The notes beneath the pieces are model-generated. The model was not told the DNA's origin and did not search any database. It was given only the letters and a program-made list of their open reading frames with translations. The position numbers and the translations under genes are program-made. This document shows positions 9,542 to 23,181 of a stretch of DNA of 64,000 nucleotides, in pieces. Source of the DNA: Phytohabitans suffuscus (GTDB lineage Bacteria; Actinomycetota; Actinomycetes; Mycobacteriales; Micromonosporaceae). The stretch covers positions 4,402,320-4,466,319 of the forward strand of contig NZ_AP022871.1 of assembly GCF_011764565.1 (NCBI RefSeq). The letters are read 5' to 3'. The stretch's first letter is position 1. Every line of letters begins with the position of its first letter.

Positions 9542-12500
9542 GTGAGCACGGGACCTACGACCCTGCCCGAAAAAGGTGCGCAGGCCCGCCGTGCTGCGCG
9601 CCGCTGGTTTCCGCGCCTGCGCGACGCGAAGATCAGGTCCAAGCTCGCGCTCATCCTCGTGGTGCCGGTCGCGGCGGTGCTCGCACTCGCCACGGTCCGG
9701 TTGGTCGACGTCGGCCGCGGTGCCCTCGACGCGAGCCTCATCCGCGACCTGACGGCGCTCTCGACCGACGTCTCGGCGCTCACGCAGGACCTGCACAAGG
9801 AGCGGATGGCGGCCGCCGTCTACCTGGCCGACCCGCCCAAGCAGGACCCGAAGGTCAACTACAAGGACCTGTACAACCAGGCGGTGAACGTCACCGACGA
9901 ACGGGTGACGGCGTACACGGCCGAGCGGCAGGCGATCGGTGAGGTGCCCGCCTCGGTCGAGGCCCGGCTCGTCCGGATCGACGAGCACCTGGCCACGCTC
10001 AACGTCACGCGCCAGGACATGCTCGCCCGCCAGCAGCGCTCGGTGGCCGAGTCGGTGCTCCGCTACGGCAACATCCTCACCGACCTCGTGGCGTACGGCG
10101 AGGTGGTCGGCCAGCTCGCCGGCGAGGGCGACCTCGCCGAGGAGCTGCGCGCGGTCGCCGCGTTCGCTCGGGCGAAGGCGGCCAAGGCCGAGGAGGAAGC
10201 GGTCGTCTACGCCGCCCTGATCGGCGGCGAGGAGCTGGGCCAGGAGCAGCTCAACTCGTTCCTCACCACGCTGACCAGCCAGGAGTCCGCGCAAGCGGCG
10301 TTCGAGCTGGTCGCGAGCAGTGAGCAGCAGGCCATCGCCGACGCGACGGTCACCGGCGACGCCGTCAACCTGGCACAGTCCAGCGAGGCGCAGGTGAGCC
10401 GCACCGTCGGGCAGGAGCCGGAGCCGGGTCAGGCCCTCGACGCCCAGCGCGCCATCGGCGCGGTGGTCGACCTCATGCGCTTCGCCGAGGTAAACCTCGA
10501 ACAGCGCGCGCTCGCCGAGGCCGACGACGTGCGCGCGGCAGTGTTCCGCCAGGCGATCGTCGAGTCGATCCTCGTGCTCATCACGCTCTTCATCGCTGTC
10601 GCGCTCGCCGTGGTCCTGGCCCGGTCGCTCAACCGCTCGCTGCGGCGCCTCCGTGAGGGCGCGCTCGCCGTGGCCAACCGCGACCTGCCCGAGGCCGTCG
10701 CCCAGCTGCGAGACGTCCGCAGCATCGGTGAGGGCGGACCGGACGAGATCGTGCGACAAGTACGCGACGCGATCCGGCTACCCAACCGCGACGAGGTCGG
10801 GCAGGTGGCCCAGGCGTTCAACGTCGTACACCGCGAGGCGGTCCGGATCGCGGCCGAGCAGGCCGCGCTGCGGACGAGCGTCTCGGCGATGTTCCTCAAC
10901 CTGGCCCGTCGAAGCCAGGCGCTGGTCGACCGCATGATCGGCGAGCTCGACATGATCGAGCGTGGCGAGGAGGACCCGAAGCGGCTGGCCCAGCTCTTCC
11001 AGCTGGACCACCTGGCCACCCGAATGCGCCGCAACGACGAAAACCTGCTGGTACTCGCGGGTGCCGACTCCACCGCGCCGCGCCGTGACGACGCGCTCCT
11101 GGTCGACGCGCTCCGCGCGGCACAGTCCGAGGTGGAGCTCTACAACCGCATCGAGTTCGGCACCGTCGACACCGACATCTCCATCGCGGCGCACGCGGTC
11201 AACGACGTCGTGCGTCTGGTCGCCGAGCTGCTCGACAACGCGACCCGGTTCTCGCCGCCCAACACCGTGGTCGTCGCGGACGCCCGGCGCATCCGCGACT
11301 ACGTGCTGATCCAGATCGAGGACCGCGGTCTGGGCCTCACCGAAGACCAGCTGGAGGCACTCAACCACCGGCTCAGCCAGCCGCCCGCGGTCGACGTGGC
11401 CGCGTTCCGGCTGATGGGTCTGGCGGTCGTGGGCCGCCTCGCCTCCCGGTACGGCGTCCGCGTCGAGCTGCGCCCGAACGTCGAGGGCGGCACCGTGGCG
11501 CAGGTGACGCTGCCGAGCGGGATCGTGGTGCTGCCCAAGCCGCGCACCCGGGAGCAGGTGCTCACCCGCCCGCGCTCGCCGCTCGCGGTGGAGACCAGCC
11601 CGGCCGCTGCCGCACCGGTCTCCGGCGGCTGGCCGCAGCCGGCCGCGCCGGTCACCCGCTCCTCGGCGGCCACGCTCTCCGAGCCGTGGCCGAGCCAGGC
11701 GCCGGCCTCGTGGGACACGTCCGCGGTGCCGGTCAACGCGACGGCCGCGACCAGCGCGTTTCCGACGCTGGGCCACTCGGCCGGCGCCACGCTGGGCCAG
11801 CCGCAGAGCGGACTGGGCTCGCCCACGGTGGCCTACCCGACCGTCCACTCCTCGTCGCTGCCGCAGCGTGGCCAGAATGCCGCGATCCCCGCGACGGCCC
11901 ACCCGATGACGCCCGCCGTCCTGCCCCCGTCCGGCCTGCCGGCCGGGCCGGTGGCCGGTTCGCCCGGTGTGTCACCCCGCCCCGACGACGGCGGTGAGGT
12001 GCCGATCTACCGGGAGATGGAGGCGGTCTGGTTCCGGTCGCACGGCCAGGCGTCGACGCAGATCTTCTCGGCGGTGAGCCCCAGCGGCGTCCCCGCCAGC
12101 CCGGCTCCGGCTCCGGCCGCCCCGACGGGCAGCTACGCCTCGTCGAGCGCGCCGGCCGCCTCGGCCGGCCTGTCCGGCGGCGCCTCGGGCTTCTCCAGCT
12201 CCTCCGGGCTCTCCGGCGGCCCCAGCCTCGGCAACGGCGGTATGGGCGGCGGCTCCGGCCTCGGCAACGGTGGCTCCGGCCTCGGCGGCGGTGGCATGGG
12301 CGGCGGTGGCATGGGCGGTGGCTCCGGTCTCGGCAACGGCGGTATGGGTGGTGGCTCCGGCCTCGGTGGCTCGCTGCCGAGCCGCGCACCCACCCCGCCG
12401 CCCGCGGCGCCGCCGCCGGCCGCGTACGCACCGCCGGTGGTGCCGCCCGCCGTGCCGCAGGACGCCGGTGCGGGCGCGGTGCCCCGGCCGCGTAGCGCCG

Positions 12501-12781
12501 CCGAAGACAGCTGGCGCACCGCCGCCGACGAGGGCTGGCGCCGCGCCGAGCAGGCTTCCGAGCCGAGCAACGCGGGTACCACGCGCTCCGGCCTGCCCAA
12601 GCGTGTGCCCCAGGCTCAGCTCGTGCCCGGTGGCGTCGAGACCTCGACAAACCGCGAGCGCACCAGGCGTACGCCGGACGAGGTCCGCGGCCTGCTCTCC
12701 GCGTACCACCGCGGCGTGCAGCGAGGCCGCTCTGCCGGCATCCAGGAAAACGGGAGCACCTCTACCAAGGAGACCAGTTGA
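9542..12781 (+). CDS. Nitrate/nitrite-sensing-type membrane histidine kinase (conservon CvnA-like)
   Basis: A 1079-residue sensor. One membrane helix at about 33-52 is followed by a helical extracytoplasmic NIT-type domain (about 60-330; DLTALSTDVSALTQDLHKER), a second helix at about 336-358, and HAMP. A dimerisation region precedes the HATPase domain, with N-box ELLDNATRFS near 560 and the G1 motif EDRGLGLT near 595. From about 665 on there is a low-complexity Pro/Ala/Gly tail, including Gly-Met-Ser tandem repeats at about 895-945. Conservon kinases of Streptomyces signal to a Roadblock protein, a DUF742 protein and a GTPase, exactly the next three genes. It starts with GTG after GGAGG. The NIT domain and the nearby nir genes suggest nitrate or nitrite as ligand, which is inference. 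Confidence 0.85.
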   Translation: MSTGPTTLPEKGAQARRAARRWFPRLRDAKIRSKLALILVVPVAAVLALATVRLVDVGRGALDASLIRDLTALSTDVSALTQDLHKERMAAAVYLADPPKQDPKVNYKDLYNQAVNVTDERVTAYTAERQAIGEVPASVEARLVRIDEHLATLNVTRQDMLARQQRSVAESVLRYGNILTDLVAYGEVVGQLAGEGDLAEELRAVAAFARAKAAKAEEEAVVYAALIGGEELGQEQLNSFLTTLTSQESAQAAFELVASSEQQAIADATVTGDAVNLAQSSEAQVSRTVGQEPEPGQALDAQRAIGAVVDLMRFAEVNLEQRALAEADDVRAAVFRQAIVESILVLITLFIAVALAVVLARSLNRSLRRLREGALAVANRDLPEAVAQLRDVRSIGEGGPDEIVRQVRDAIRLPNRDEVGQVAQAFNVVHREAVRIAAEQAALRTSVSAMFLNLARRSQALVDRMIGELDMIERGEEDPKRLAQLFQLDHLATRMRRNDENLLVLAGADSTAPRRDDALLVDALRAAQSEVELYNRIEFGTVDTDISIAAHAVNDVVRLVAELLDNATRFSPPNTVVVADARRIRDYVLIQIEDRGLGLTEDQLEALNHRLSQPPAVDVAAFRLMGLAVVGRLASRYGVRVELRPNVEGGTVAQVTLPSGIVVLPKPRTREQVLTRPRSPLAVETSPAAAAPVSGGWPQPAAPVTRSSAATLSEPWPSQAPASWDTSAVPVNATAATSAFPTLGHSAGATLGQPQSGLGSPTVAYPTVHSSSLPQRGQNAAIPATAHPMTPAVLPPSGLPAGPVAGSPGVSPRPDDGGEVPIYREMEAVWFRSHGQASTQIFSAVSPSGVPASPAPAPAAPTGSYASSSAPAASAGLSGGASGFSSSSGLSGGPSLGNGGMGGGSGLGNGGSGLGGGGMGGGGMGGGSGLGNGGMGGGSGLGGSLPSRAPTPPPAAPPPAAYAPPVVPPAVPQDAGAGAVPRPRSAAEDSWRTAADEGWRRAEQASEPSNAGTTRSGLPKRVPQAQLVPGGVETSTNRERTRRTPDEVRGLLSAYHRGVQRGRSAGIQENGSTSTKETS

Positions 12782-13188
12782 TGACGAGGCCAGCAGCGAT
12801 GCAGGACATGGGTTGGCTGCTCAGCAACTTCGCCGACAGCGTGGCCGGGATCGCCCACGTCGTCGCGGTGTCGGCCGACGGCCTTCTCCTCGCGTCGTCG
12901 CGTGACCTGCCGGCCGACCGGGCGGACCAACTGGCCGCGATCACATCCGGTGTGGTGAGCCTCACCGATGGCGCCTCCCGGATGTTCAGCGCCGGCGGGG
13001 TGCTCCAGACGGTCATCGAGATGGACAGCGGCTACCTCTTCCTCATGTCGATCAGCGACGGCTCCTCGATGGCGGTGCTGGCCGCACGCAGCTGTGACGT
13101 GGGTCAGGTCGGATACGAGATGGCGCTGCTCGTCGAGCGGGTCGGTGCGGCTCTGTCGCCGGCGACCCGAGAGGCAGTCACGCGCTAG
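12781..13188 (+). CDS. Roadblock/LC7 domain protein (conservon CvnB-like)
   Basis: A 135-residue cytoplasmic protein of Roadblock fold (LLSNFADSVAGIAHVVAVSADGLLLASSRDLP), the class that binds and regulates small GTPases as a homodimer. Its ATG overlaps the kinase stop codon by one base, and AAGGAG lies 8 nt upstream, so translation is coupled to the kinase. In conservons this protein is thought to link kinase and GTPase. There is nothing unusual in length or motifs. Confidence 0.88.
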   Translation: MTRPAAMQDMGWLLSNFADSVAGIAHVVAVSADGLLLASSRDLPADRADQLAAITSGVVSLTDGASRMFSAGGVLQTVIEMDSGYLFLMSISDGSSMAVLAARSCDVGQVGYEMALLVERVGAALSPATREAVTR

Positions 13189-13245
13189 TCCTAAGTAGAT
13201 AATGACGCTGACGCCGCGACTATTACGGAAGGAGGTGACCGCGTC

Positions 13246-13614
13246 ATGGTGGACCAACCACGAGAAGACCCGAGAGGTGCCCTGGTCCGGCCGTACGCGG
13301 TCACCCGTGGGCGTACTGAACCCCGCCGCGAGATCGCCCTGGAGGCGGTGCTCGTGGCGGACCCGGCCGCTGTGCAGGAGTCGCGGTTCGCTGGCCACGA
13401 CAAGCACCGCATCGCCACCGTCTGTGAAAACCGTGCGCAGTCGTTGGCGGAGATAGCGGCCTACACCCGGCTCCCGTTGGGCGTCGCCCGGGTGCTCGTC
13501 GCCGACATGGTGGCGGAGGGCTTGCTGACGCTGCACAGTGCCGCTCCGGTAGAAGCCTATGAGGAGCGGATGGAACTGCTTGAGAGGGTGCTGAGTGGAC
13601 TTCGCAGGCTATAA
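13246..13614 (+). CDS. DUF742 winged-helix-like protein (conservon CvnC-like)
   Basis: A 122-residue DUF742 protein: LVRPYAVTRGRTEPR near the start, and a predicted helix-turn-helix ending LPLGVARVLVADMVAEGLL. It is the third member of the conservon, with an excellent ribosome-binding site GGAAGGAGGTGA before the ATG. Its role in signalling is not established; it may be the DNA-binding or adaptor output. The next gene begins inside its 3' end. Confidence 0.88.
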   Translation: MVDQPREDPRGALVRPYAVTRGRTEPRREIALEAVLVADPAAVQESRFAGHDKHRIATVCENRAQSLAEIAAYTRLPLGVARVLVADMVAEGLLTLHSAAPVEAYEERMELLERVLSGLRRL

Positions 13615-14221
13615 CGCCGCAGGGGCGCGCCGAAACCGAGGGATCACGTCCGCCAAGATTGTGATCGCGGGAGGCTTCGGCGTCGGCAAGACGACGCTCG
13701 TGGGCGCCGTCTCCGAGATCACCCCGCTGACCACGGAAGCGGTCATGACCGCGGCCGGCGTGGGGATCGACGACCCCTCGAAGGTGCCGGGTAAGGAGAC
13801 CACCACGGTCGCGATGGACTTCGGCCGCATCACCATGGCCGAAGACCTCATCCTGTACCTCTTCGGCACACCCGGCCAGACCCGCTTCTGGTTCATGTGG
13901 GACGAGATCATCCGAGGCGCGGTGGGCGCGGCCGTCCTGGTCGACACCCGCCGCATCGCGGACGCTTTCGCGCCGCTGGACTACTTCGAAAACCGGCACC
14001 TGCCGTACGTGGTGGCGCTGAACGTCTTCGACGGCTCCCCGCAGTACGAGGTCGAGGAGATCCGCGAGGCACTGGCCATCGCCCCGCACGTACCGCTGGT
14101 GCTGTGCGACGCCCGCCACCGCGACTCGGTCAAGCACGTGCTGGTCAACGTCGTGGAGCACGCGATGATGACCCTCCGCGCCGAGCGCGGCGGCGGCCGC
14201 CGCCCAACCCCGGTCGGCTGA
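13595..14221 (+). CDS. Small Ras-like GTPase (conservon CvnD-like)
   Basis: A 208-residue GTP-binding protein: P-loop GGFGVGKT at 26-33, a switch region with ETTTVAMDFGRI, and the G3 motif LFGTPGQTRFWFMWD. It is the last gene of the conservon and overlaps the DUF742 gene by 20 bases, starting with GTG. It should cycle between GTP and GDP forms under control of the Roadblock protein encoded two genes upstream. It is also the only GTPase near the separate Roadblock array at 18942-20869. Confidence 0.88.
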   Translation: MDFAGYNAAGARRNRGITSAKIVIAGGFGVGKTTLVGAVSEITPLTTEAVMTAAGVGIDDPSKVPGKETTTVAMDFGRITMAEDLILYLFGTPGQTRFWFMWDEIIRGAVGAAVLVDTRRIADAFAPLDYFENRHLPYVVALNVFDGSPQYEVEEIREALAIAPHVPLVLCDARHRDSVKHVLVNVVEHAMMTLRAERGGGRRPTPVG

Positions 14222-15533: not shown

Positions 15534-15874
15534 TACCGGGCGCCCACTTCGACCATGCCGTCGCGCACCCGCACGGGGAACGTGCGCACCGCCACGCCGG
15601 CCACGTCGAGGCATTCGCCGGTGCGCAGGTCGTACACCTCCTTGTGCAGCGGGGACGCGACTGTCGGCGCGTCGCCACGGCTGCCGACGATGCCGCGGGA
15701 CATCACGTTCGCGCCGGCGATCGGGTCGCGGTTGTCGATGGCGAAAAGCCCGCCGTCGTACGTGCGGAAGATGGCGACCTGTGAACCGGCCACGAGCGCC
15801 GCCACGCCCCGCTCCGGCTCCACCAGCTCCTGCGGGCAGATGACTTCCCAGCGCTCCGTCAGGGTGTCCGTCAT
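15533..15874 (-). CDS. nirD: Nitrite reductase (NADH) small subunit NirD
   Basis: A 113-residue protein of the Rieske-like NirD family (ERWEVICPQELVEPERGVAALV; SPLHKEVYDLRTGEC), without Rieske cluster ligands, as expected for NirD. It partners NirB in cytoplasmic reduction of nitrite to ammonium. The ATG overlaps the nirB stop (ATGA) and the TAA overlaps the nnaR start, so the three genes are translationally coupled. Confidence 0.92.
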   Translation of the reverse strand: MTDTLTERWEVICPQELVEPERGVAALVAGSQVAIFRTYDGGLFAIDNRDPIAGANVMSRGIVGSRGDAPTVASPLHKEVYDLRTGECLDVAGVAVRTFPVRVRDGMVEVGAR

Positions 15875-18402
15875 TGGCGTGCTCCCATGGTCGGTAGACC
15901 GAGCACCACGGGTCGGCGCTCGCCCAGTGCCGGGACCGGCTGCCCCCGCTCCACCTCGAAGGTGATCGATGGGTCGGGGGTGTCCGGTGCGTTGACGAAG
16001 GAGGTGAACCGGCGCACGCGCTCCGGGTCGTCGACGGTGGCCCGCCACTCGTCCTCGTACGAGTCGACGTGGCGGGCGATGGCCGCGTCGAGCTCCGCGC
16101 AGAGGCCGAGCGAGTCGTCGACGATCACCGCGCGCAGGTGGTCGAGGCCGCCGTCCATCGCCTCGATCCACGCGGCCGTGCGCTGTAAGCGGTCCGCGGT
16201 GCGGATGTAGAACATGAGGAACCGGTCGACGTACCGCACCAGCTCCTCAGTGGACAGATCGCTGGCGAAGAGGTCGGCGTGGCGCGGGCGGAAGCCGCCG
16301 TTGCCGCCGACGTAGAGATTCCAGCCGTTGTCGGTCGCGATGACGCCGAAGTCCTTGCTCCGGGCCTCGGCGCACTCGCGGGCGCACCCGGAGACCGCCG
16401 ACTTGATTTTGTGCGGCGCGCGCAGCCCCCGATAGCGCAGCTCCAGCGCGACCGCCAGCCCGACCGAGTCCTGCACCCCGTACCGGCACCAGGTGGAGCC
16501 GACGCAGGACTTGACCGTGCGCAGTGCCTTGCCGTACGCGTGGCCGGACTCGAACCCGGCGTCGACGAGGCGCCGCCAGATCTGCGGAAGCTGCTCCACG
16601 CGCGCGCCGAACAGGTCGATCCGCTGGCCACCGGTGATCTTCGTGTACAGGTTGAAGTCGCGGGCCACCTCGCCGATCACGATGAGCTTGTCGGGCGTGA
16701 TCTCCCCGCCGGGGATGCGCGGCACGACCGAGTAGGTGCCGTCGCGCTGGATGTTGGCCAGGAAGTGGTCGTTGGTGTCCTGCAGCGCGGCCTGCTCGCC
16801 GTCGAGCACGTAGCCGTTGCCCAGCGAGGCGAGGATCGAGGCGACCGCGGGCTTGCAGATGTCGCAGCCGCGCCCGCGCCCGTGCTCGGTCACCAGCTGC
16901 GAGAACGTGCGGATGCCACGGACCCGGATGATCTCGAAGATCTCCTGCCGGCTGTGGTCGAAGTGCTCGCACAGCGCCTTGGAGAGCCGCACGCCGGAGA
17001 CGGCGAGGAGCTGCTTGAGCATCGGCACGCACGAGCCGCAGCTGGTGCCGGCGCGGGTGCACGCCTTGAGGGCGGGCACGTCGGCGCAACCCTCGTGGAT
17101 CGCGCCGACGATCTGGTCCTTGGTCACCGCGTTGCACGAGCAGACCTGCGCGCTGCCGGGCAGCGCGGCGATACCGGCGCCCGTGCCCGCGCCGCCGGAC
17201 TCGGGGGCGAGCAGCGCGAGTGGCGGCCCGGGCAGCGGCCCGCCGACGCTGGCCCGGAGCGTCGGGTATGCCGACGCGTCGCCCACGAGCACGCCGCCGA
17301 GCAGTGTCGTGGCGTCGTCGGAGAGGACGAGCTTCGCGTACACCCGGGTGGCCGGGTCGGTGAACGTGACGTCGAGGCAGCCCTCGGTGGTGCCGTGCGC
17401 GTCACCGAAGGAGGCCACGTCGACGCCGAGCAGCTTGAGCTTGGTCGACATGTCGGCGCCGGGGAACGTGGCGTGGCCGCCGAGCAGCCGGTCGGCCACC
17501 ACCTCGGCCATCGCGTAGCCGGGTGCGACAAGCCCGTAGCAGCGCCCCTCGACGGCCGCGCACTCGCCGATCGCCCAGACGCGCTCGTCGGAGGTGCGGC
17601 AGGCGGCGTCGACGAGGATGCCGCCGCGCTCGCCCACGTCGAGCCCGGCGTCGCGGGCCACGTCGTCGCGGGGGCGGATGCCGGCGGCGATCACCACGAC
17701 GTCCGCCTGGATCCACGAGCCGTCGGACAGGACCAGCCCGTGCACCGTGCCGGCCTCGCCGCCGGGGGCGCCGTGCGGGCGGATCGCGGTCGTCGCCGTG
17801 CCGGTGTGCACCTTGACGTCGAGCTCCTCGACGTAGCGCCGGAGCATCGAGCCGCCGGCCTCGTCGACCTGCACCGGCATCAGCCGCGGCGCGAACTCCA
17901 CGACGTGTGTCGACAGGCCCAGCAGGCGCAGCGCGTTGGCCGCTTCGAGACCGAGCAGGCCACCCCCGATGACCGCGCCGGTGTGGCGCCCCCGCGCGTG
18001 CTCGCGGATCGCCTCCAGGTCGTCGAGCGTGCGGTAGACGAAGACCCCGCGCAGGTCGGTGCCGTCGACCGGGGGCACGAACGGGTATGAGCCGGTGGCG
18101 AGGACCAGGGCGTCGTACGGGTACTCCCCGTGGTCGGTGACCGCGAGGCGCCGCTCCCGGTCGACCCGGACGACCGGCTCGCCGAGCCGCAGGTCGACGC
18201 CGTCGTCGGGGGTGTGCAGGCTCAGCTCCCGCGCCGAAACGCCGTCGAAGAACGCGGAGAGCCGCACCCGGTCGTACGCCGGGCGGCCCTCCTCGGCCAG
18301 CACCGTGACCCGCCACCCGCCGCTCGTGTCGCGGGAGCGCAGCGCCTCCACGAAACGCTGGCCGACCATGCCGTTGCCGACGACGACGAGGTTGGCGGTC
18401 AT
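15871..18402 (-). CDS. nirB: Nitrite reductase (NADH) large subunit NirB
   Basis: An 843-residue flavo-sirohaem enzyme that reduces nitrite to ammonium with NADH. Domains in order: FAD/NAD(P) Rossmann domains (start TANLVVVGNGMVGQRFVEAL), a BFD-type [2Fe-2S] domain (CSCNAVTKDQIVG and ACTRAGTSCGSC), then the sulfite/nitrite reductase halves with cluster and sirohaem cysteines in SCVGSTWCRYG and SGCARECAEARSKD. The length is normal. The open frame continues upstream, but the ATG at 18402 fits the family N terminus. A nitrate reductase remnant lies immediately upstream and overlaps the start by four bases. Confidence 0.93.
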   Translation of the reverse strand: MTANLVVVGNGMVGQRFVEALRSRDTSGGWRVTVLAEEGRPAYDRVRLSAFFDGVSARELSLHTPDDGVDLRLGEPVVRVDRERRLAVTDHGEYPYDALVLATGSYPFVPPVDGTDLRGVFVYRTLDDLEAIREHARGRHTGAVIGGGLLGLEAANALRLLGLSTHVVEFAPRLMPVQVDEAGGSMLRRYVEELDVKVHTGTATTAIRPHGAPGGEAGTVHGLVLSDGSWIQADVVVIAAGIRPRDDVARDAGLDVGERGGILVDAACRTSDERVWAIGECAAVEGRCYGLVAPGYAMAEVVADRLLGGHATFPGADMSTKLKLLGVDVASFGDAHGTTEGCLDVTFTDPATRVYAKLVLSDDATTLLGGVLVGDASAYPTLRASVGGPLPGPPLALLAPESGGAGTGAGIAALPGSAQVCSCNAVTKDQIVGAIHEGCADVPALKACTRAGTSCGSCVPMLKQLLAVSGVRLSKALCEHFDHSRQEIFEIIRVRGIRTFSQLVTEHGRGRGCDICKPAVASILASLGNGYVLDGEQAALQDTNDHFLANIQRDGTYSVVPRIPGGEITPDKLIVIGEVARDFNLYTKITGGQRIDLFGARVEQLPQIWRRLVDAGFESGHAYGKALRTVKSCVGSTWCRYGVQDSVGLAVALELRYRGLRAPHKIKSAVSGCARECAEARSKDFGVIATDNGWNLYVGGNGGFRPRHADLFASDLSTEELVRYVDRFLMFYIRTADRLQRTAAWIEAMDGGLDHLRAVIVDDSLGLCAELDAAIARHVDSYEDEWRATVDDPERVRRFTSFVNAPDTPDPSITFEVERGQPVPALGERRPVVLGLPTMGARQ

Positions 18403-18839
18403 GCGGCGGCCTCCGGCGAATCCGGACCGGGGCTGCCGAGGATGGAACCGGGGAGGCCGCCGAGGATGGACCCGTCGAGGATGGGGCTGTCGAGGAAAAG
18501 CCACGGCGTGCCCGGCCGGTCCACCGATGGGCACGGCCGGAACACGCCGTCCTCAGCGTCGACCCGCTCCCACGTCACGCCTGCGCGATCCGCCGCACCC
18601 CCGGCAGAGGCACGCCGCGGCTCCTCGAACACAGCTCGCGGCTCGGTGGTGAACCGCGCGCCGGCGCCGAGCCGGGAGGCCAGCTCGGCAAACACCGCCA
18701 GATCCGTCCTCACATCTGGCGGCGGCTCGACGTGACCCCCCGGCGCCGCCCGGAAGGTCATGCCGCATCTGGGCGCGCGGGACGGACAGTGGGTGGCAAC
18801 CTCCCGGGCCACCACCAGACTCTCCGCCGCGCCTGCCAT
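18399..18839 (-). pseudogene. Internally deleted remnant of assimilatory nitrate reductase (NasA)
   Basis: A 146-codon frame joining two distant parts of a NasA-like protein. Codons about 13-39 (EVATHCPSRAPRCGMTFRAA) match the N-terminal iron-sulfur region, normally THCPYCALQCGMTL, but the second cluster cysteine is lost. Codons 44 to about 115 (DLAVFAELASRLGAG, EEPRRASAGGAAD, DGVFRPCP, PGTPWLFLD) match a region several hundred residues further on in the full protein. The tail is a repetitive SILDGSILGGLPGSILG stretch unlike NasA. A real enzyme has roughly 700 residues or more, so this cannot reduce nitrate. It sits just upstream of nirB, where an active nasA would be expected. The comparison is from memory of the family. 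Confidence 0.65.
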
Positions 18840-18941: not shown

Positions 18942-19355
18942 CTAGAGACGGGCCTGCGCGGCGACGTGCACATCCAGCATGGTGATCAGGCGCGCGGTCA
19001 CCTGCCGCGCCTCGAGATGCAGGCGGGCGATGTTGAGCCCCTCACCGCCCAGCACCGCGAGGAGCGCGGCGTCACCGACCGCGTACACCGAGAAGTAGCC
19101 CCGGTGGCTGCGCACCGTGGACTCCCGGAACGGGCCCTGCCGCAGGGCCAGTCCGGTCTGCCGGCCGAGCCCGAAGGTCGCCGCGGCCAGGGCCGCGATG
19201 TCGTGTGGCTCGGGCCCGCTGTTCAGGTCGTGGAGGAGCAGCAGCCCGTCCACGCCGGCGATGACCGAGCCCACGACGCCGCTGACCGCCTGCTTCAGCG
19301 ACGCCATCTCGGCGTACGCCGCCCCATACGCCTCCTCCTCGGAGGTGTCCGCCAT
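18942..19355 (-). CDS. Roadblock/LC7-type protein (array member 4)
   Basis: A 137-residue protein with a Roadblock-like core: VSGVVGSVIAGVDGLLLLHDL, then IAALAAATFGLGRQTGLAL and a YFSVYAVGDAALLAVLG strand pair. A GAGGGGGA ribosome-binding site precedes the ATG. It is the last of four same-strand genes of this fold and has no GTPase or kinase gene beside it. Its role is unknown; the family generally regulates small GTPases or builds scaffolds. Confidence 0.75.
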   Translation of the reverse strand: MADTSEEEAYGAAYAEMASLKQAVSGVVGSVIAGVDGLLLLHDLNSGPEPHDIAALAAATFGLGRQTGLALRQGPFRESTVRSHRGYFSVYAVGDAALLAVLGGEGLNIARLHLEARQVTARLITMLDVHVAAQARL

Positions 19356-19394
19356 TCCTGTCCCCCTCTGTGAAGCTCTCCTTCGAGAGCTGTG

Positions 19395-20039
19395 TCACCC
19401 CAGCCGGTGCAAGCCGTCCCGCACCCGCTCCACTGTCCGGCCGTCCGTTTCGAACAGGTGCCCGGCGAACTTGGCGAACCAGGAGGGCGCCGGATCCTCC
19501 TCGACCGTGCCGCGGTCCCACGGGCCGGTCGTTGAGGGCTTCCGCCGCGGCAGTGTTCCGGCCAACTCCAGCTCCACGGCGTCCGGTATGGCCGCTGGCG
19601 GTGCCGGTGTCGCTGCCCGCGGTGCCTCGGCCGCGGGCGTGGAGGCCACCGGAACCGGTTCGGTGGGCGCTGGTACCGCCCCGTCGATCAGCTCCCGGAA
19701 GTCCCGGCGGGCCATCGCCAGGTTGGCCTCCCGCCGGTCGAGCAGCAGGTGTGCGACGCACCCGCCGGTCCCCTCGCCCTCGATGACCCGTAGCACGTGA
19801 AACCAGCGCTGGCTGGTCACGAGCAGGTCGTCCATCGCCGTTTCCATGTCCGTCAGCCGGACCAGCTCGACCGCCGTCTCGGCCATGGCGGCCGCCATCT
19901 GCGCGATGCTCTCCCCTTCGGGAAGAGCCTCCATGGTCGCCGAACGAAGCGGCTTCCTCGTGTCGATGGCGGTCACGATCACAGCACGCGCCCCGGTTAT
20001 CCGGAGCGCGTCCCCCCAGATGACATCCTCGATCGACAT
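19395..20039 (-). CDS. Roadblock-like domain fused to Pro/Ala linker and conserved C-terminal segment (array member 3)
   Basis: A 214-residue protein. Residues 1 to about 120 resemble the Roadblock fold of its neighbour (DDLLVTSQRWFHVLRVIEGEGTG, then RREANLAMARRDFREL, matching EDILITLDTQYHLIRPL and KSRANLGLARHQL in array member 1). A Pro/Ala linker (about 120-160) leads to a C-terminal part with SWFAKFAGHLFETDGRTVERV, which I do not recognise. The fusion suggests an adaptor. There is no clear ribosome-binding site; the gene follows the previous one by 25 bases. Confidence 0.6.
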   Translation of the reverse strand: MSIEDVIWGDALRITGARAVIVTAIDTRKPLRSATMEALPEGESIAQMAAAMAETAVELVRLTDMETAMDDLLVTSQRWFHVLRVIEGEGTGGCVAHLLLDRREANLAMARRDFRELIDGAVPAPTEPVPVASTPAAEAPRAATPAPPAAIPDAVELELAGTLPRRKPSTTGPWDRGTVEEDPAPSWFAKFAGHLFETDGRTVERVRDGLHRLG

Positions 20040-20064
20040 GACCTATGGCCGTCTCGCCGAGGCA

Positions 20065-20493
20065 TCAGCCACCGAAGCTGGTGTCCAGGCCCCGCATCAC
20101 CAGCCGGGCCTGGGCGAACAGCATGCCGATGTTGACCGCCCGCCGGCACACGACAACGGCCACCATGTCGTCGGTCACCGAGCTGCGCATGAAGAGGTGC
20201 ACCAGGTTCTCGCTGTTGACCAGGATCTCCCGGAAGTAGTGCCCCTGCTTTTCGATCCCGCGCCGCTTGTTGAACATCTCCTCGATCATCACCACGTTGC
20301 GGCCCTGGAACATGTCGAAGGTCGCGGCGGCGAGAAGGTCGAGGACCTCAGCGGGGTGGGAGTCGACGGTGTCGACGGCCAGGAGCATGCCCGTGGACAT
20401 GTCCACGACGCCGGCGGCCACGCACTCCGGCACGCTCTGCCGGAACTCCCGCACCACGTTGGTGACGACCTGGCTGATGCTTACCTCGGTCAT
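20065..20493 (-). CDS. Roadblock-like protein (array member 2)
   Basis: A 142-residue protein, probably of Roadblock fold (ECVAAGVVDMSTGMLLAVDTVDSH; DDMVAVVVCRRAVNIGMLFAQARLVM). It begins 4 bases after the stop of array member 1 without an obvious ribosome-binding site, so it is likely translationally coupled. Function unknown. Confidence 0.7.
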   Translation of the reverse strand: MTEVSISQVVTNVVREFRQSVPECVAAGVVDMSTGMLLAVDTVDSHPAEVLDLLAAATFDMFQGRNVVMIEEMFNKRRGIEKQGHYFREILVNSENLVHLFMRSSVTDDMVAVVVCRRAVNIGMLFAQARLVMRGLDTSFGG

Positions 20494-20497
20494 CGGC

Positions 20498-20869
20498 TCA
20501 GATTTCGATCGAGGACTCGATCAGGCGCAGCTGGTGGCGCGCCAGTCCCAGGTTCGCCCGCGACTTGTTCAGCGCCAGGTAGATGAACAGGCCCTTGCCG
20601 GCCCGCGAGCCCAGCGGCCGGATCAGGTGGTACTGCGTGTCCAGCGTGATCAAGATGTCCTCGATCGAGTCTTCGATCTTGAGCATTTCGAGCGTGCGCA
20701 TCTTCGCCCGGACCACGTCCGTGTTGCCCGCCGCGGCCATGCCGAGGTCAAGCTCGGGAGAGCCGCCGGCGATGCCGAGGGTCATGCCGCTGGAGTAGTC
20801 GACGAGCGCGACGCCGATCGCGCCCTCGATGCTCATCGCGTCTTTGAGCGCGGTGTCCAGTGCAGCCAT
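20498..20869 (-). CDS. Roadblock-like protein (array member 1)
   Basis: A 123-residue protein with the strand-helix pattern of Roadblock/LC7 (AIGVALVDYSSGMTLGIAGG; GKGLFIYLALNKSRANLGLARHQL). It is the first gene of the four-gene array; GGAGG lies 9 nt before the ATG, and 366 bp of divergent regulatory DNA lie upstream. Confidence 0.72.
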   Translation of the reverse strand: MAALDTALKDAMSIEGAIGVALVDYSSGMTLGIAGGSPELDLGMAAAGNTDVVRAKMRTLEMLKIEDSIEDILITLDTQYHLIRPLGSRAGKGLFIYLALNKSRANLGLARHQLRLIESSIEI

Positions 20870-21235
20870 GGGTCATTGCCTCCGCTGTTTCGAGTGATAT
20901 TGGCGTCACCGCGGCCCCGGTGTATGAGGGGTGGTGCCCAGGGGCGACGGTCGGCCTGGCGCCGGTTCCACTCGGAATCTCGCACGGTGATCGCCTTCAC
21001 GCACCAGCCCTGACGGAAACTGACTGAGGAGTCAGTCAAGGCATGTACGAGCACCGAAAATTCGCCCATCACGATGGGTTGTGTGATGGCTGGAGGTGCT
21101 GTAGTGGGCTATGCGTTGCGCGTCATGCTACGTCCCGCATGGTCGAAATCTATGGGAGCGTACTCATAGGCGGTGGGTGAGGATGGCGGTACGCTGCGGA
21201 TGTGCCCTGGTCATACCGTAGGTATGCTCTGGCGC
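20870..21235. other. Divergent regulatory region between the Roadblock array and the toxin-antitoxin pair
   Basis: No supported gene. It contains short perfect inverted repeats: ACTGACT-GAGG-AGTCAGT at 21019-21036, CCCATC-AC-GATGGG at 21065-21078, and the toxin-antitoxin operator at 21212-21226. Confidence 0.45.
21212..21226. promoter_or_regulatory. Operator palindrome overlapping the -10 box of the toxin-antitoxin operon
   Basis: CATACC-GTA-GGTATG, a perfect 6-bp inverted repeat, overlaps the -10 box TATGCT at 21223-21228, which ends exactly 7 nt before the ATG. Binding here would block transcription, as expected for an autoregulated antitoxin. Confidence 0.6.
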
Positions 21236-21481
21236 ATGACCAAGAAGGTGACCCTGTCGTTCCCCGACGACACGATCGAGGAGGCACGGCGGTTCGCCGA
21301 GCGTGACGGCATGACGCTGTCCGCCTGGATGGACCAGGCGGCCCGGGAGAAGGCGCTGCGCGAGGTCTTCGCCGCGCACGCCGCCGCGGTGCAGCGTGCC
21401 GGCTTCGACCTGGAGGCCGCGGCGCTGGCAGACGAGCGCGAGGTGGCGATGGTGGACGCAGCGATCTTCCGTGCTGCGTAG
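21236..21481 (+). CDS. Antitoxin of a MazEF-like pair, ribbon-helix-helix type
   Basis: An 81-residue protein: KKVTLSFPDDTIEEARRFAERDGMTLSAWM has the pattern of a ribbon-helix-helix DNA-binding N terminus, followed by an acidic/alanine helix (AALADEREVAMVDAAIF) that would wrap the toxin. The ATG at 21236 is chosen over an upstream in-frame GTG-like extension because the -10 box ends 7 nt before it. The toxin gene overlaps the last 11 bases. Confidence 0.75.
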   Translation: MTKKVTLSFPDDTIEEARRFAERDGMTLSAWMDQAAREKALREVFAAHAAAVQRAGFDLEAAALADEREVAMVDAAIFRAA

Positions 21482-21764
21482 GGGCGAGGTCTGGCGCGTC
21501 GAGGGGGCCCGCGAGCGGCTCGGCCTGGTGATCAGCTCAGACGTCTACAACAGCACCGACGTGCCCATCGTCCTCGTGGCCGAGGTGGTGGAGGAGGAGT
21601 TGCTGCGCGACTCCCCGCTGGCCGTCGCCATGGGGCAGTACGTCGTGATGCCCGACCGGCTCTCGTCGCCGATGAAGAAGTGGTTCACCGAGTGCGTCGA
21701 CTACGCCGACACCGACACGATGAACAGGGTCTCCCGCGCGCTGCGCATCATCCAGGACCTGTGA
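21471..21764 (+). CDS. MazF/PemK-type toxin
   Basis: A 97-residue protein starting GTG inside the antitoxin gene: LRRGEVWRVEG, LGLVISSDVYN and PMKKWFTECVDYADTDTMNRV follow the MazF/PemK ribonuclease layout. It would cleave mRNA when free of antitoxin. The 11-base overlap gives coupled translation. Divergence in the middle makes the exact subfamily uncertain. Confidence 0.75.
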   Translation: MLRRGEVWRVEGARERLGLVISSDVYNSTDVPIVLVAEVVEEELLRDSPLAVAMGQYVVMPDRLSSPMKKWFTECVDYADTDTMNRVSRALRIIQDL

Positions 21765-21816: not shown

Positions 21817-23181
21817 TCAGATCGAGGCGTGCGCCAGGCTCGGCACCTGGCTGACCAGGACGCGGCGGCGCAGGTAGCACCACCAGGTGACGGCGAGGCA
21901 GGCGGCGTACATCACGCCGAACCACGTGAACGCGGTCGAGATGCCGCCGGTCGCGGTGTACGAGTCGCTGATCGCCCGGGGCAGGTAGAAGCCGCCCATC
22001 GCGCCGATCGCGCCGGCGATGCCGAGCGTCGCCGCCGACTCCCGCTTGGCCACGGCCAGGTCGGGCGACTTCGCCGCGAAGATCGCCGGGATCATCCGGT
22101 ACGTCGAGCCGTTGCCCGCGCCGGCCGCCGTGAAGAGCAGCCAGAACGACGCGAGGAACAGCCCCATGTTCTGGCCGCCGGCCGCCGTGACCACGCCGTA
22201 CGAGCCCAGGGCCATGAGCGTGAAGCAGGCGGCGGTGACCCGGGACCCGCCGATCCGGTCGGAGAGCCAGCCGCCGAAGGGCCGGGCGAGCGAGCCGATC
22301 AGCGGCCCGGTGAACGCGAGCGTGACCGTGGCGGCGCCCAGGTGGGCGGTCGGCGCGTCCGGAAACTGCAGCTTGAGCACCAGCGGAAACGCCGCCGAGT
22401 AGCCGAGGAACGAGCCGAAGGTGCCGATGTAGAGGAAGGACATGACCCAGGTGTGCGGCCGCTTGAGGGTGGCGAACTGGGCCCGGAACGGTGTCTTCGC
22501 CACGGCGAGGTTGTCCATGAACAGGTACGCGCCCACGGCCGCCGCCAGCACGAGCGGCACCCACATCAGCCCGCCGTAGACCAGGCCGGCGGCGATCACC
22601 ACGGGTACGAACAGCTGCATCGTGCTGATGCCGATGTTGCCGCCGGCCGCGTTGAGGCCGAGCGCGGTGCCCTTCTGCCGCTCGGGGTAGAAGAAGGAGA
22701 TGTTGGTCATGGACGAGGCGAAGTTGCCCCCGCCGAAGCCGGCCGTGGCCGCGCAGGCGAGCACGGCCCAGTACGGCGGCCGGGCGGTCACCGCGAACAT
22801 GAGGCCGGCGAGCGGGATGAGCAGCAGGAGCGCGCTGATCGCGGTCCAGGTGCGGCCGCCGAAGCGGGTGACCGCGAACGTGTACGGGATGCGCATCAGC
22901 GCGCCGATGAGGTTGGGGAGCGCGACCAGCCAGAAGCGCTGGTCGACGGAGTAGGGGAAGAGCGCCTGCGGGAGCGCCACGACCACGACGCTCCAGATGG
23001 TCCAGACGGAGAAGCCGAGGTGCTCCGCGAAGATCGAGAACACCAGGTTGCGCCGGGCGACCGGGCGGCCGGTGGTGGCCCAGAACTCCTCGTTCTCCGG
23101 CTCCCAGCGGGTGAGCCACCGGCCCTTGCCGGCCGGGGCAGCCGCGGCGGCGGCCACGGTGGGGGTCAGTGTCGTACTCAT
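21817..23181 (-). CDS. narK: Nitrate/nitrite transporter NarK (MFS, NNP family)
   Basis: A 454-residue, roughly 12-helix transporter. Both nitrate signatures are visible: GFGGGNFASSMTNISFFYPE and GAGNGSTYRMIP. It would import nitrate or nitrite, or exchange them. With nirBD and nnaR nearby and nasA decayed, nitrite uptake or export is the likelier job here. The frame is open further upstream, but the ATG at 23181 fits the family and has TAACTT ending 7 nt before it. Confidence 0.9.
   Translation of the reverse strand: MSTTLTPTVAAAAAAPAGKGRWLTRWEPENEEFWATTGRPVARRNLVFSIFAEHLGFSVWTIWSVVVVALPQALFPYSVDQRFWLVALPNLIGALMRIPYTFAVTRFGGRTWTAISALLLLIPLAGLMFAVTARPPYWAVLACAATAGFGGGNFASSMTNISFFYPERQKGTALGLNAAGGNIGISTMQLFVPVVIAAGLVYGGLMWVPLVLAAAVGAYLFMDNLAVAKTPFRAQFATLKRPHTWVMSFLYIGTFGSFLGYSAAFPLVLKLQFPDAPTAHLGAATVTLAFTGPLIGSLARPFGGWLSDRIGGSRVTAACFTLMALGSYGVVTAAGGQNMGLFLASFWLLFTAAGAGNGSTYRMIPAIFAAKSPDLAVAKRESAATLGIAGAIGAMGGFYLPRAISDSYTATGGISTAFTWFGVMYAACLAVTWWCYLRRRVLVSQVPSLAHASI

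Follow-up and report, generated by a model that had tools for sequence, protein, structure and literature searches.

In actinomycetes Roadblock genes are numerous and outnumber those for GTPases; a survey from 2014 counted 328 orphan MglB homologues, none of them characterised at that time (PMC4316618). At a locus of Phytohabitans suffuscus an earlier note had proposed an array of four same-strand Roadblock-type genes without a GTPase of its own. We analysed it in a window of 64,000 nucleotides, which belongs to a genome of 10.1 Mb in one contig (G000); the same array locus is also present in Phytohabitans maris and P. flavus. The array consists of four minus-strand ORFs of 123, 142, 214 and 137 amino acids at 18942-20869 of the window, named in transcription order R1 (20498-20869, the operon's first gene), R2 (20065-20493), R3 (19395-20039) and R4 (18942-19355), with intergenic gaps of 4 bp (R1-R2), 25 bp (R2-R3) and 39 bp (R3-R4). 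Downstream lies nirB (15871-18534); upstream, on the opposite strand, a NarK-like MFS transporter (21817-23178) is separated from the array by a small toxin-antitoxin-like gene pair. The nearest conservon is complete, is situated 5 kb off on the strand opposite to the array (9542-14221) and includes a CvnA kinase with a NIT (nitrate/nitrite sensing) domain (9542-12781, plus strand) and the CvnD GTPase (13595-14221, plus strand). As the note had stated, the array has neither a GTPase nor a kinase nor a DUF742 gene beside it in the window; it is thus not a conservon, in which genes for a histidine kinase, a Roadblock protein, a DUF742 protein and a GTPase lie next to each other. No promoter or terminator consensus was found at the array, as chance rates predict. 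The pair between narK and the array (21173-21764, plus strand) resembles a ribbon-helix-helix/DUF6364 antitoxin and a PemK/MazF-type toxin, both matches being just below the Pfam cut-offs, and in other Phytohabitans similar-sized genes occupy its place.

Are the four proteins Roadblock proteins? R4 is a Robl_LC7 protein by Pfam, with 46 bits for a cut-off of 23. R1 stays below all Pfam cut-offs, its top match being LAMTOR5, a Roadblock subunit of Ragulator, which is weakly matched by 15 of the 28 R1 family members (best E 3.5e-4). The AlphaFold2 model of R1 (pLDDT 85) presents the Roadblock order a-bb-a-bbb-a, and Foldseek retrieved as the best PDB structure MglB (6hjm, E 4e-7, TM 0.73), followed among solved structures by a Streptomyces Roadblock protein, Ragulator and p14/MP1. 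The N-terminal domain of R3 (residues 3-121; 19677-20033, minus strand) was matched to MglB in the same way (E 8e-6), the models being built on shallow alignments of 20 sequences (R1) and 9 sequences. The MglB-related Roadblock/LC7 fold is thus found in R1 and R3 by modelling and in R4 by Pfam, that is, wherever it was testable. A single-sequence search of R1 against PDB chains was set aside, since its matches, NRas, spike and fragments of that kind, all had E values of 0.1 or worse. For R2, a divergent protein, no Robl_LC7 or PDB sequence match was obtained in any of the 15 members, and its profile-profile matches are weak and confined to R4, the R4 counterpart R4s and R1 (R4-type E 6e-5 to 1e-4, R1 E 2e-4, unrelated pairs giving about 0.01-0.9); R2 is probably a Roadblock protein, judging from these matches. 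The note had also pointed out phrases shared by the first and the third members. Both pairs are present, EDILITLDTQYH in R1 and DDLLVTSQRWFH in R3, and SRANLGLAR and REANLAMAR, and they reflect homology rather than chance because R1 and R3 match in profile-profile comparison with an E of 4e-18, against the 0.01-0.9 of unrelated pairs.

The four members are not copies of a single gene. Profile comparison joined R1, R3 and R1p, a protein of a Streptomyces cluster, with E values of 4e-32 to 4e-18, the R3 profile matching R1p at 2e-20; it joined separately R4, its counterpart R4s and the conservon CvnB (7e-35 to 4e-10, the last value being that of R4 versus CvnB). In a maximum-likelihood tree of 69 domains each array member formed a separate clade. 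R4, R4s, CvnB and the gammaproteobacterial R4-type proteins fell on one side (support 95/91), the R1 clade took in the R1 of Marinobacter and Ectothiorhodospiraceae (95/99), and R2 sat on a long branch whose side is unsure; a single clade of R3 and R1p was neither supported nor rejected (p 0.38). On these comparisons there are two lines, an R1-type line (R1, R3) and an MglB/CvnB-type line (R4, perhaps R2), and the array is therefore an old set of paralogues and not the product of a recent tandem duplication. Our first iterative profiles had merged R1 with R3 and R2 with R4; members were reassigned by separate seed profiles, profile-profile comparison and the tree, after which the link between R2 and R4 was weaker.

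At the end of R3 the note had recognised a Pro-rich linker and left the C-terminal part without assignment. In the model the Roadblock domain is followed by disorder and then by two C-terminal helices. The linker differs widely in length among orthologues: the shortest have about 40 residues, and in Winogradskya (L034, L035) it exceeds 400 and contains repeats like EPDLAPKVEPDLA. It is followed by an LPRR motif (residues 163-166; 19542-19553, minus strand): an LPxR occurs within the last 65 amino acids of 19 of 20 non-redundant R3 proteins, for an expectation of 1.6 and a maximum of 7 in 1000 shuffling trials. The C-terminal helix (DGRTVERVRDGLHRL; 19401-19445, minus strand) follows the pattern D-x3-[LV]-x-R-[VIL]-x3-L-x2-L. 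A matrix derived from R3 tails alone scored 20 of 20 non-redundant DUF742 (CvnC) C-termini, and 46 of 59 C-termini of DUF4388 proteins, above the best of 448 background genes. The two ends can be compared in the window itself, where the nearby CvnC finishes with RMELLERVLSGLRRL (13567-13611, plus strand) and R3 with DGRTVERVRDGLHRLG; the homology is short, 16 amino acids, and the helix has a pLDDT of about 60-66 in the R3 model. Comparing profiles, we found that the C-terminal half of the DUF4388 protein matches the winged helix and tail of DUF742 with a probability of 90% (E 1.6e-6, with a DUF742 profile of 20 sequences and other families at E 0.02 or worse), which identifies this half, at the profile level, as CvnC-like. 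The new finding is that, by sequence comparison, the LPRR motif and the terminal helix of R3 recur both in the DUF4388 protein and in the exchange factor of conservons, CvnC (DUF742). The LPxR is weak in DUF4388 proteins (12/38, a number that shuffles reach), and R3 gave no match to a full DUF742 domain with winged helix, only the C-terminal helix being present. An LPxR motif has been reported in the CvnA kinase (PMC4316618), and a CvnA-like tail was considered for R3 on this ground; the CvnA helix scores as background, so that only the LPxR is common to the two proteins.

We then asked whether the four genes form a unit, or whether they are scattered independently in relatives. R2 was found only in arrays of the R1-R2-R3-R4 type and served as the array marker. 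It is present in 23 of 201 Micromonosporaceae genomes and in 6 of 44 genera, and the order R1-R2-R3-R4 is kept in 20 of the 22 intact R2 loci of this family (window excluded), the two exceptions being one locus without R1 nearby and one without R3; the genes are therefore not scattered. The R1 family is wider (108/201 Micromonosporaceae and 75/297 Actinomycetia genomes, with 12 strong loci among 229 gammaproteobacterial genomes), and many genomes have R1 alone. Genes in the fetched loci were called by simple scripts. The neighbours of the array differ from genus to genus, so that the operon is retained whatever genes surround it. All four genes of the intact array are under purifying selection within Phytohabitans, with dN/dS of 0.05-0.15 (R1), 0.16-0.32 (R2), 0.29-0.55 (R3) and 0.04-0.28 (R4). 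No GTPase was seen inside the array in any array locus read, nor within about 4-6 kb of it in the loci from other genera. The note had placed the array in a nitrite locus close to a conservon whose GTPase could be the partner: the location is correct, and in other Phytohabitans genomes the array and a conservon GTPase are also about 5-10 kb apart, but this linkage was seen in Phytohabitans only. The absence of the array from one genome (G001) was dismissed as evidence, since its narK lies at a contig end. A second array copy in G000 (L050 2820-4032; G000:C1 about 5864.8-5866.0 kb) has an intact R1 (93%) and frameshifted R2 and R4, no R3 being found in it, and another frameshifted second copy occurs in the genome G004 (L211).

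In Acidimicrobiia and Gammaproteobacteria, relatives of R1 and R4 are found on either side of a Ras-like GTPase. In an Acidimicrobiales locus (L045) R1 is followed directly by the GTPase and then by R4; Marinobacter (L047) and Ectothiorhodospiraceae (L048) have an unknown protein between R1 and the GTPase, again with R4 last; in 7 of the 12 gammaproteobacterial loci a GTPase lies on the same strand at most 3.5 kb from the R1 relative. Within Actinobacteria, R1 adjoins CvnB-CvnD in one Micromonosporaceae locus (L124), and three genomes of the genus g85 (L147, L169, L170) have it upstream of a conservon. Another gammaproteobacterial locus contains two tandem R2-like Roadblock genes, with no GTPase detected there (L251 3726-4542). 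Finally, a GTPase-less cluster of the order R1p-DUF4388-R4s-R1 is widespread in Actinobacteria and is also present in G000 (L058 2261-4625; G000:C1 about 1938.8-1941.1 kb).

The GTPase content of whole genomes was examined as well. G000 has five MglA-type GTPases, all inside conservons, among them the CvnD of the window; a search for an orphan GTPase in this genome with an R1-linked GTPase and a broader profile yielded only these five, plus one fragmentary match. The same genome has nine CvnB genes for five CvnD, four CvnB genes being without an adjoining CvnD (L055, L056, L057, L059), three of them with a CvnA-type kinase. With every GTPase housed in a conservon and four CvnB left without one, it may be common in G000 for GTPases to be shared in trans. 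MglA-type GTPases are present in all 201 Micromonosporaceae genomes, including the 23 with R2, and in the class sample in 73 of 75 genomes with R1 versus 106 of 222 without it, these being raw genome counts in which both genome size and descent act as confounders of the co-occurrence. Two R1 genomes, G442 and G493, both rated 100% complete and with a lone R1 (G442:C16:47308-47673; G493:C34:43923-44288), have no recognisable MglA-type GTPase, and R1 can therefore have another use.

The GTPase linkage of relatives, the shared tail and the GTPase counts lead us to prefer, with a probability of roughly 0.55, a reading in which the array derives from a switch of the MglA/MglB type, is without a GTPase and acts in trans on conservon CvnD, as a regulator or a scaffold. 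Since the R3 tail is common to the exchange factor of another signalling system in the same cell, the array probably plugs into GTPases encoded elsewhere, and the five GTPases of G000 would be the candidate partners. The array Roadblock proteins would assemble into at least one dimer, of an R1-type subunit with an R1- or R4-type one; the dimers would bind a GTPase of the MglA family that is produced from another locus, with conservon CvnD, one or several, as the likeliest partner, and binding would alter the GTP cycle of the GTPase or hold it in place. By homology, R4 and R1 would be the GAP-type subunits, and R3 would combine a Roadblock domain with a CvnC-type docking tail. Its flexible arm, with the LPRR and a C-terminal helix that may imitate the end of CvnC, could so dock on the surface of CvnD or CvnB that CvnC uses, competing with CvnC or replacing it. 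The mycobacterial homologues of CvnB and CvnC, MfpD and MfpC, have been reported to be the GAP and the GEF of MfpB (PMC9769811; PMC13015309). Against this reading stand the many genomes with R1 alone, the two R1 genomes with no MglA-type GTPase, the restriction of conservon linkage to Phytohabitans, and the shortness and low model confidence of the shared tail.

The array could also work without any GTPase, as a hetero-oligomeric scaffold that binds other Roadblock proteins, CvnB for instance, or a kinase, in the manner of the Ragulator dimers or of Myxococcus MglC. We regard this as possible, though on the unlikely side. MglC, itself a Roadblock paralogue, binds MglB (PMC7949163), and the weak LAMTOR5 matches of the R1 family, the two R1 genomes without an MglA-type GTPase and the surplus of CvnB over CvnD genes in G000 all point in this direction; the near relatives are nevertheless linked to GTPases in several phyla, and the tail of R3 is that of a family of GTPase exchange factors. 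Quite unlikely, in our view, is a local nitrite-sensing module in which the array would serve the nearby NIT-kinase conservon and tune the flanking nirB and narK. It would account for the position of the array between these two genes, 5 kb from a NIT-domain CvnA, and for the similar spacing in other Phytohabitans, but in other genera the array is surrounded by quite different genes, with no conservon in the nearest 4-6 kb or so, and NIT sensory domains occur in CvnA kinases of many kinds (PMC13343842). The absence of a GTPase and the frameshifted second copies in G000 and G004 would suit a functionless remnant, decaying or selfish, of an Mgl system whose GTPase has been lost; with purifying selection on all four intact-copy genes (dN/dS 0.04-0.55) and a gene order kept in six genera, this explanation is already disfavoured and very improbable.

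How does the array compare with known systems? Group 3 Mgl systems, as described by Wuichet and Sogaard-Andersen in 2014, combine a single MglA with one or two MglB and a receiver/winged-helix protein whose winged helix is predicted (PMC4316618). Those of beta/gamma-Proteobacteria are alike in that the Roadblock genes of the Marinobacter and Ectothiorhodospiraceae loci are R1 and R4 relatives. We class these loci as Group 3-like by gene content and not by a GTPase tree: their Roadblock subunits are orthologous to those of the array, by the R1 clade and by the R4-type genes at the same loci. Unlike Group 3 loci, the array contains no MglA-family GTPase and no receiver/winged-helix protein, and has two additional Roadblock proteins (R2, R3); the tails of the Group 3 unknown proteins gave no clear match to the R3 tail by matrix or profile comparison. 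With conservons (CvnA-D) the array shares the CvnB line of R4, and the CvnC C-terminal helix and CvnA-like LPxR of R3, whereas it lacks the kinase, the full DUF742 protein and the GTPase, and canonical conservons lack R1-type subunits. The cluster R1p-DUF4388-R4s-R1, for which we found no name, likewise has both Roadblock lines and is without a GTPase, and the R3-type tail is carried there by a third protein; it has a DUF4388/PATAN-type protein and no R2, while the array has the tail alone, fused to R3. A second clade of orphan actinobacterial MglB also consists of GTPase-less Roadblock genes not flanked by conservon genes (PMC4316618), but it was described without an operon, R1-type partners or an R3 tail, and is compared here with R4 by description only.

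The note had considered a stand-alone multi-Roadblock complex to be functionally undescribed. That is too broad in view of MglB-MglC (PMC7949163) and of Ragulator (LAMTOR1-5; PMC5680233), although we found no description of a GTPase-less operon of this make-up in the open-licence literature. Both these complexes, like the array, comprise several different Roadblock subunits, and in Ragulator a flexible protein wraps two Roadblock heterodimers; they are demonstrated, whereas a complex of the array proteins is only guessed and has no sequence-level membership in either. A Ragulator-like hub, in which R1/R2 and R3/R4 heterodimers would be joined by the R3 arm and the CvnC-mimicking tail would collect CvnD from several conservons, is in our opinion rather doubtful; were it true, one GTPase-less operon would coordinate many separate G-protein systems of the cell. 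The shared tail is a concrete and testable link between a GTPase-less operon and the conservon exchange factors; through the DUF4388 proteins it carries the homology of CvnC over to another widespread cluster, and it would make cross-talk between several conservons of one cell rest on a defined set of proteins. Orphan Roadblock proteins with an activity have precedents: a point mutation in an orphan mglB of Snodgrassella altered gut colonisation (PMC11112851), and MglC binds MglB (PMC7949163). Finally, R1 genes, solitary or linked to a conservon, can adjoin a gene for an ArsR-like regulator (L118 5345-5677, L124 5126-5542, L170 6148-6642).
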